Made by a program: the position numbers and the translations under genes | Notes under the pieces: generated by a model | The model's database searches: none | Told to the model about the DNA's origin: nothing | What the model saw: only the letters and a program-made list of their open reading frames with translations | In this document: in pieces, positions 42,605-51,980 of the stretch | Position numbering within the stretch: the stretch's first letter is position 1 | How the letters are laid out: each line of letters starts with the position of its first letter | Assembly (NCBI RefSeq): GCF_033025475.1 | Contig: NZ_CP130322.1 | Coordinates: 1,426,001-1,490,000, forward strand | Reading direction: 5' to 3' | Origin: Sphingomonas sp. C3-2 | GTDB lineage: Bacteria > Pseudomonadota > Alphaproteobacteria > Sphingomonadales > Sphingomonadaceae | Length of the DNA: 64,000 nucleotides

Positions 42605-43987
42605 ATGAGCCATAATTTCCACCCTACTACGCTGCGCGAATATGACATCCGCGGCATCGTCGGGTCCACGTTGGAAGAGGCAGATGCCTATGCGATCGGG
42701 CGCAGCTTCGCCACGCTGGTCCGCCAGGCCGGCGGCACGCGCGTCGCGGTCGGGTATGACGGGCGCGAATCCTCGCCTCGGCTTGAGAGCGCGCTGGTCA
42801 AGGGGCTGACCGAAGGGGGCGTCGACGTGGTGCGCGTCGGCCTCGGTCCCACGCCGATGCTCTATTACGCCGAAGCGGTGCTGGAGGTGGATGGCGGCAT
42901 CCAGATAACCGGCAGCCACAACCCCCCCGATTATAACGGCTTCAAGATGGTGCTTCAGCACGCGCCCTTTTACGGGGCGGACATCCAGAAGATCGGCGCC
43001 ATGGCCGCCGAAGGCGACTGGACCGAGGGTACGGGCACCGTCACCGACGCCGATATCATGGACGATTATGTCGGCCGCCTGCTCGCGGGCTATGCCGGCG
43101 GCGCGTTCCGCATCGGCTGGGACGCGGGCAACGGCGCCGCCGGCCCGGTGATCGAGAAGCTCGTCAAGCTGCTCCCGGGTGAGCACCATCTGCTGTTCAC
43201 CGATGTCGACCCGAATTTCCCCAACCATCATCCCGACCCCACCGAGGAAAAGAACCTCGCCGACCTCAAGGCGCTCGTCGCGCGCGAAAAGCTCGATTTC
43301 GGCGTGGCTTTCGACGGTGATGGCGATCGGATCGGCGCGATCGACGGCGAAGGCCGCGTGATCTGGGGCGATCAGCTGCTGGGCATTCTTGCCGAACCGG
43401 TTCTGAAAGCCGTGCCCGGCGGCACGATCATCGCCGATGTGAAGACCAGCCAGGCGCTCTATGACCGCGTCGCCGAACTGGGCGGCGAGCCGCTGATGTG
43501 GAAGACTGGCCACAGCCTGATCAAGGCGAAGATGAAGCAGGTCGATTCCCCGCTGGGCGGTGAGATGAGTGGCCACATCTTCTTTGCCTGGGACTATTAT
43601 GGCTTTGACGACGCCATCTATGCTGCGGTGCGGTTGATGAGCGCAGTGCGTATGTCGGGCCAATCCTTGACCGAGATCAAGGACGCCATGCCCGATATGA
43701 TCAACACGCCCGAGATGCGGTTCCAGGTCGATGAAACCCGCAAGTTCGCGGTGGTCGACGAGGTTCTCGGGCGGCTCAAGGCTGACGGCGCGGATGTCAA
43801 CGATATCGACGGCGCGCGCGTAAACACCGAGGATGGCTGGTGGTTGCTGCGCGCATCGAACACGCAGGATGTGCTCGTGGCGCGCGCGGAAGCCCGTGAC
43901 GAAGCCGGGCTCGATCGCCTGCTGGGCCAGATCGACGAACAGCTGGCACTGTCCGGTCTCGAACGCGGTCCGCAGGCAGGTCACTAA
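42605..43987 (+). CDS. Phosphomannomutase/phosphoglucomutase
   Basis: 460 residues from ATG 42605 (a TTG one codon earlier is also open). Alpha-D-phosphohexomutase: N-terminal [13 protein letters not shown], active-site phosphoserine loop [15 protein letters not shown] (Ser about residue 104), metal loop [13 protein letters not shown], sugar-binding [10 protein letters not shown], and C-terminal phosphate loop [15 protein letters not shown]. Converts mannose or glucose 6-phosphate to the 1-phosphate for surface polysaccharide and nucleotide-sugar synthesis. Third gene after mipZ and the J protein. AlgC/ManB-type; which hexose dominates cannot be told. Confidence 0.93.
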
Positions 43988-44084
43988 CTATGCGATTGCG
44001 AATGAATTGCAATTAAGATGCAATTTTTGCAACGCGGCGCCGTTTTTCGCACTTGCACAATTGTAAGCAATGCAACATATGAGG

Positions 44085-44146
44085 GGTGCCTTTTAGGCAT
44101 CCTCTCCTAAAACTTTCCCAGCCGCCTTTCGGGGCGGCTTTTTTTT
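44085..44146 (+). ncRNA. Candidate small RNA with anti-Shine-Dalgarno-like single-stranded region
   Basis: A promoter-like pair TTGCAC (44053-44058) and CATATG (44076-44081), 17 bp apart, would start RNA near 44086. The transcript would have a first hairpin GTGCC-ttttA-GGCAT (44086-44100), an unpaired CCTCTCCTAAAACTTTCCCA (44101-44120), and a terminator hairpin with eight Ts. CU-rich loops of this kind occur in alphaproteobacterial trans-acting sRNAs that bind ribosome sites. No ORF covers it. Alternatively it is merely the leader or trailer of the phosphohexomutase mRNA. Confidence 0.45.
44121..44146 (+). terminator. Rho-independent terminator
   Basis: GCCGCC (44121-44126) pairs with GGCGGC (44133-44138), followed by eight T residues (44139-44146). 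Ends the phosphohexomutase transcript and/or the candidate small RNA. Confidence 0.9.
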
Positions 44147-44293
44147 GCCCTGCGCAGATCGTTCCATTTCCAAGGACTCTCGCCTGCAGACGGCATGTTA
44201 CCAACCACAGGCTGCGTCCCGCCCTCCGAAACGCTTGCCGCCAGCCGGGATGAGGCATAATCTTCGAGGACACACCCTTGGGAGAGGGTTTCG

Positions 44294-50437: not shown

Positions 50438-50514
50438 TGGTCGGGGAGAGAGGATTCGAACCTCCGGCCCCTGCCTCCCGAAGACAGTGCTCTACCAGGC
50501 TGAGCTACTCCCCG
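50438..50514 (-). tRNA. tRNA-Pro (anticodon CGG)
   Basis: 77 bases including encoded CCA (50440-50438). Acceptor stem CGGGGAG/CTCCCCG, D-arm GCTCAGCCTGGTAGAGC, anticodon stem CTGTC/GGCAG with loop TTCGGGA (anticodon CGG at 50480-50478), variable loop and TTCGAAT T-loop, discriminator A. Reads CCG, a heavily used Pro codon in this GC-rich genome. No integrase or att repeat seen on either side. Confidence 0.97.
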
Positions 50515-51895: not shown

Positions 51896-51980
51896 ACGGT
51901 ATCCTCTCCATCGTTATACCGCGATGGTAGCGCGCCCATTTGCCCATGCAAGGGGGCGTGGTGAGGGAAGTGCCTGACGC

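Follow-up and report, generated by a model that had tools for sequence, protein, structure and literature searches.

What is encoded immediately behind a phosphohexomutase gene by a segment that combines a promoter-like TTGCAC/CATATG pair, a short hairpin, a CU-rich stretch and a U-tract terminator? These elements were described in an initial annotation of the window (the whole 64,000-nucleotide stretch of DNA analyzed here), and all are present in the sequence. The ORFs that span the place are short overlapping frames. The segment at 44086–44146 on the plus strand very probably encodes a small RNA of about 61 nt, and its parts are arranged as follows.

42605–43987, plus strand: phosphohexomutase gene with PGM_PMM domains I–IV, upstream of the RNA.
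44086–44146, plus strand: predicted SuhB-type sRNA of about 61 nt, from the Rfam match and the fold, with its start inferred from the −10 box.
44086–44100, plus strand: 5′ hairpin GUGCCUUUUAGGCAU, 15 nt, from the fold.
44096–44108, plus strand: putative seed GGCAUCCUCUCCU, made up of the 3′ strand of the hairpin and the open CU-rich stretch; open in the fold past 44100.
44101–44108, plus strand: CU-rich stretch CCTCTCCT, from the sequence.
44120–44146, plus strand: intrinsic terminator with U-tract, from the terminator scan and compensatory changes.

The Rfam suhB/mmgR model (RF00519) matched 44081–44153 over the full model length with 46.5 bits, above the gathering cut-off of 41. The initial annotation had likened the RNA to CU-loop sRNAs of alphaproteobacteria without naming a family; the Rfam match bears out this likeness, and the window RNA is a well-supported addition to a family that is already known and named (suhB / MmgR / alphaR8). 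A 2005 report presented the suhB element as a probable sRNA that occurs several times per genome, and the accessible text of that report gives the element's structure as a short 5′ helix, an unstructured conserved stretch and a terminator stem (PMC1273637). The same layout was found in the fold of the window RNA and in a consensus fold of 38 copies. The start at 44086, some five bases past the −10 box, gives the length of 61 nt; the earlier start at 43990 was set too early because that span takes in the promoter and upstream DNA. The 62 nt from 44086 to 44147 fold with −20.7 kcal/mol (z = −3.42), and none of 200 shuffled sequences was equally stable. A fold started at 44086 gives the hairpin and the terminator with an open stretch in between, whereas the seed is partly paired in a fold that starts at 44080, so the exact RNA start matters.

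The terminator consists of a stem at 44120–44139 and a T-run at 44139–44146. In the alignment of 38 copies, 8 of the 10 stem pairs have both bases replaced in a way that preserves pairing. Four pairs of the 5′ hairpin do not vary across these copies, which is neutral as to pairing. The copies were taken from high-scoring places and chosen by the neighboring word CATCCTCTCC, so the invariance of this word is partly by construction. The compensatory terminator changes, together with conservation of the gene and its promoter, exclude the lack of hairpin conservation that the initial annotation had named as grounds for rejecting its proposal. The same observations and the Rfam match support that proposal, a trans-acting sRNA with a CU-rich anti-ribosome-site stretch, its own promoter and an intrinsic terminator.

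Of 199 genomes (own included) drawn from the same bacterial family, one that includes pollutant degraders, 179 have a match to RF00519 and 161 exceed the cut-off. All five genomes of the genus carry two copies over the cut-off. In the genome that contains the window (3.53 Mb, one contig) the two are the window copy and a sibling at C1:1753986 (L001), with three more matches below the cut-off. Close same-strand pairs of suhB genes, about 200–360 nt apart, were seen at L257 (G143:C50:2499 and 2861), at G035:C10:100449 and 100673, and at G057:C1:5051054 and 5051245; they suggest tandem duplication in some genomes.

Upstream of the RNA the sequence contains the following elements.

44018–44033, plus strand: upstream inverted repeat ATGCAATTTTTGCAAC, the window form of TTGCR-N5-YGCAA, which fits the relaxed form.
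44044–44058, plus strand: conserved block TTTTCGCACTTGCAC around the −35 element.
44053–44081, plus strand: predicted promoter with −35 TTGCAC (44053–44058), a 17-nt spacer and −10 CATATG (44076–44081), from sequence and comparison.

An E. coli-type sigma-70 scan found no promoter here, so the promoter rests on comparison. Exact TTTTCGCACTTGCAC occurs at only two places in the genome, at the same distance upstream of each of the two suhB copies. Ninety-nine distinct copies, taken from high-scoring places, chosen by the word CATCCTCTCC and related to one another, were collected for the wider comparison. The word CGCANTTGC lies 49–52 nt before the core in 81 of the 99, and 65 of 83 copies show a distance of 23 nt from TTGC to the −10 box. 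The upstream repeat TTGCR-N5-YGCAA is present in 55 of the 99 copies, and the relaxed form TGCRN5YGCA at that place in 73; the TTGCR-N5-YGCAA form lies 31 nt before the CGCA block in all 50 copies that have both, and a form with a 4-nt gap was found in none of the 99. Across 102,433 background positions the repeat occurred once. The window repeat fits only the relaxed form and lies one base closer to the −35 block. A sigma-54 promoter was considered and dropped by eye. As a mark of a wider regulon, TTTTCGCACTTGCAC was rejected, with no excess in the genome at up to three mismatches (74 occurrences versus 109 for the reversed pattern). The conserved promoter block and the upstream repeat argue for a separate transcript, and the promoter proposed in the initial annotation is supported by the same block before the sibling and at the same place in most of the collected relatives.

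The alternative reading of this arrangement is that the segment has no promoter of its own and only forms part of the phosphohexomutase mRNA, either as its 3′ untranslated region and terminator or as an sRNA released from it by processing. The phosphohexomutase gene does lie about 100 nt upstream on the same strand, the RNA stands behind this gene in five of five genus genomes and in at least seven other genomes among the fetched copies, and the failure of the E. coli-type scan would also fit. Against it, the promoter block precedes the sibling copy at the same distance, and also many copies with no phosphohexomutase in the fetched flank (about 300 nt for many of them). Among 80 named phosphohexomutase loci the RNA was found in two only (L006 and L014; two further hits of about 15 bits were not counted), and the nearest of the 80 phosphohexomutases (Sphingomonas sp. 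LaA6.9, 90%, L006) has the RNA behind its gene. The small number of phosphohexomutase loci with the RNA indicates that this flank is one of several homes of the suhB gene. We regard the untranslated-region reading as improbable. The initial annotation had named it as an outcome that would undo the proposal, and what makes it unlikely is the promoter block before the sibling, whose 3-kb locus shows no phosphohexomutase.

As a possible regulator of other mRNAs, the RNA was examined by counting complementary sites. The complement AGGAGAGGATG at one mismatch or fewer occurs 80 times in the genome versus 29 times for the reversed pattern, and GGAGAGGATGCC 45 times versus 5. Because the word AGGAGAGG is retained in the reversed patterns, the excess is not accounted for by Shine-Dalgarno content alone. 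Exact GGAGAGGATG occurs at 31 places, two of which are the sRNA genes, and about 15 of the remaining 29 lie just before a start codon as judged by eye. An exact 12-mer complementary to the seed occurs 12 times, twice in the sRNA genes; six of the other ten are at gene starts and four are not start-like. The predicted targets are homogentisate dioxygenase (hmgA, TIGR01015), methylmalonate-semialdehyde dehydrogenase (mmsA, TIGR01722), a Rieske oxygenase, two SDR proteins, two VOC/glyoxalase-like proteins, two SnoaL-like proteins, a metabolite/H+ symporter-like protein, an alpha/beta hydrolase, a TIM-barrel protein, an EF-G-like GTPase and two products without a match. By our reading of the product names they are mostly catabolic. 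The calculated duplex energies of 15 targets range from −19.7 to −29.1 versus a median of −11.1 and a minimum of −22.7 for 82 controls, a comparison that is biased because the targets were chosen by match. At window 51898–51909 on the minus strand, GGAGAGGATACC has one mismatch to the seed complement and immediately precedes the start of a 432-aa frame.

The hmgA gene was found in 59 of 149 genomes, and 30 loci were fetched. A site longer than 8 nt was present in the window genome only among the 27 readable loci, and hmgA is thus unsupported as a conserved target. The mmsA starts were located by tblastn in 30 loci, the best-scoring among the matches listed. GGAGAG stands in the ribosome site of 10 of the 30, compared with 9 of 550 baseline ORFs. 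The corresponding Fisher p (1.9e-9) is optimistic because mmsA was scanned over a wider span, the loci are best-scoring and many of the baseline ORFs are orthologues. The seed match in the other mmsA loci is never longer than 8 nt, and GGAGAG occurs before 8 of 90 and 6 of 88 ORFs of the hmgA and mmsA loci, respectively, these genes included. Among relatives, 184 of 199 genomes contain the exact 12-mer, often within suhB itself. A script divided 60 such stretches into 29 with a possible start, 29 with none and two suhB copies; inspection of the same 60 by eye gave eight suhB copies and about 12 convincing starts. Target conservation is thus weak or mixed, and the targets seem to turn over fast, or else 6–8 nt of seed suffice.

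The reading that we favor, and hold to be quite likely, is that of a SuhB-type trans-acting sRNA with its own promoter that acts with Hfq to block translation of catabolic mRNAs in carbon catabolite repression. Transcription from this promoter would yield the RNA of about 61 nt, in which a short hairpin at the 5′ end is followed by the open CAUCCUCUCC seed and by a terminator with U's at its end. With the help of Hfq, GGCAUCCUCUCC would pair with catabolic mRNAs at their Shine-Dalgarno and start regions, and this pairing would block translation and so contribute to carbon catabolite repression. In plain terms, the RNA probably keeps genes for nutrient breakdown from being translated when better food is present. 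The mostly catabolic predicted targets fit with SuhB of Sphingopyxis granuli TFA, the published catabolite-repression RNA of a sphingomonad that bears the same Rfam name. According to the accessible text, SuhB of S. granuli is 61 nt long, binds the 5′ untranslated region of thnR, its one named target, and needs Hfq (PMC6563040). The window RNA has the same length if the inferred start is right. The accessible parts of the open-access literature on sphingomonad suhB, thnR and Hfq-dependent sRNAs contain no wider SuhB target list. The hmgA, mmsA and Rieske oxygenase mRNAs are offered as testable targets, and PhaR as a testable signal.

PhaR enters through MmgR of Sinorhizobium meliloti, a member of the same Rfam family that is 77 nt long and has a known effect on PHB (PMC8401924, PMC12542648). 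The accessible parts of these papers report that PhaR binds the mmgR promoter in gel shifts (PMC12542648) and represses mmgR via a motif between −35 and −10 (PMC8401924). The corresponding element of the window is the following.

44066–44077, plus strand: candidate decayed PhaR-like site AGCAATGCAACA between −35 and −10, recognized by eye, with two mismatches to TGCRNYGCASMA.

The consensus TGCRNYGCASMA is that given for PhaR in the available text of PMC6201568. An intact TGCRNYGCASMA-like operator of the PhaR (AniA) type was not found in the promoter of the window copy. Of the 99 sphingomonad copies, 33 have the core TGCRNYGCA in the spacer between −35 and −10 and 16 the full 12-mer, counts that overstate the number of independent events because the copies are related. 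In 1000 shuffles of each spacer, which kept single-base content alone, TGCRNYGCA turned up in 0.14 copies on average and in no more than 2. Of the 10 copies in the genus, 8 carry this core, among them the sibling L001; it is missing from the window copy and from L121. A PhaR gene is present in the own genome and in 192 of the 199 family genomes. The site was found in none of four copies from PhaR-less genomes, too few to set against 33 of 99 elsewhere. The PhaR-like site is an unsettled lead to a putative operator.

These observations bear on a further alternative, in which the RNA would chiefly control PHB storage through phasins, as MmgR does, rather than catabolite repression. The amounts of PhaP1 and PhaP2 protein rose when the core of MmgR was deleted, by the accessible account (PMC8401924), and the wide presence of the PhaR gene would agree with such a role. 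However, no phasin is named among the predicted targets inspected, and the window seed differs from MmgR-type seeds. We consider a role chiefly in PHB storage unlikely. Chance resemblance, a terminator beside a CU-rich stretch with no RNA function, is scarcely credible: terminators are common, and the terminator scan alone found one in this stretch against a shuffle mean of 0.7, but the family model scores over its cut-off, the fold is stable by its z-score, core and promoter are conserved, and the genome has a second copy.

The window RNA also resembles SisA–D of Caulobacter crescentus (alphaR8), which share the hairpin, the CU-rich single-stranded seed, the terminator and several copies per genome. 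The accessible text of PMC12559287 reports that SisA represses by the same kind of pairing, that pairing near start codons was demonstrated for Sis RNAs by compensatory mutations, and that alphaR8/SisA is marked by a UUUCCUCCCU core and by an FGase-adjacent (N-formylglutamate amidohydrolase) copy in most single-copy species, with sisA itself linked to FGase. The 10-nt single-stranded core 5′-UUUCCUCCCU-3′ is absent from the window RNA, which has CAUCCUCUCC instead, and the window copy lies behind phosphohexomutase and not beside FGase. The four sis promoters are described in that text as having no common motif, whereas both SuhB copies here share a promoter block.

In the own genome a different RNA adjoins FGase (PF05013). 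This locus outside the window, L003:1501–1579 (G000:C1:3190793–3190871), was the third suhB-model hit at 33.6 bits, under the cut-off, and has a hairpin, the exact tail UUCCUCCCU of the alphaR8 core and a terminator. Its FGase place and UUCCUCCCU seed make L003, rather than the window RNA, the likelier counterpart of Caulobacter SisA. A DNA search found relatives of L003 in 28 of 59 genomes, own included. FGase was present in 19 of the 20 L003-type loci returned, own included (L411 has the RNA and no FGase hit), and absent from the 39 SuhB-type 3-kb loci tested. The Rfam suhB model at E 0.01 matched L003 only among 19 L003-type loci. A SuhB-class model (R1) gave 68–74 bits to the two SuhB copies on which it had itself been trained and at most 19.5 to all else. 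The hairpin sequence varies between L003-type loci, and its arms still look complementary by eye.

The 'suhB' label may thus join two RNA classes, a split that we treat as an unsettled lead. The first would be an FGase-linked RNA with a classical UUCCUCCCU-like seed, mostly missed by the Rfam suhB model; the second would be the SuhB class, to which the window RNA belongs and which has CAUCCUCUCC as its seed and a promoter block of its own. In an extended and rather doubtful form of this proposal both of these sphingomonad classes are alphaR8-like, SuhB is the RNA arm of global carbon catabolite repression, and PhaR, bound between −35 and −10, would switch one SuhB sibling in response to PHB status, a control from which the sibling in the window would have escaped. 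Two weaker suhB-like matches were also noted. One, at L005:1501–1578 (G000:C1:1279718–1279795, 29 bits, outside the window), lies close behind an open frame, contains a hairpin, UUCCUCCU and a terminator, and is a possible further CU-rich sRNA; the other, L004, lies behind a tRNA. Within the window, the only other Rfam match over the cut-off is a tRNA gene at 50441–50514 on the minus strand.
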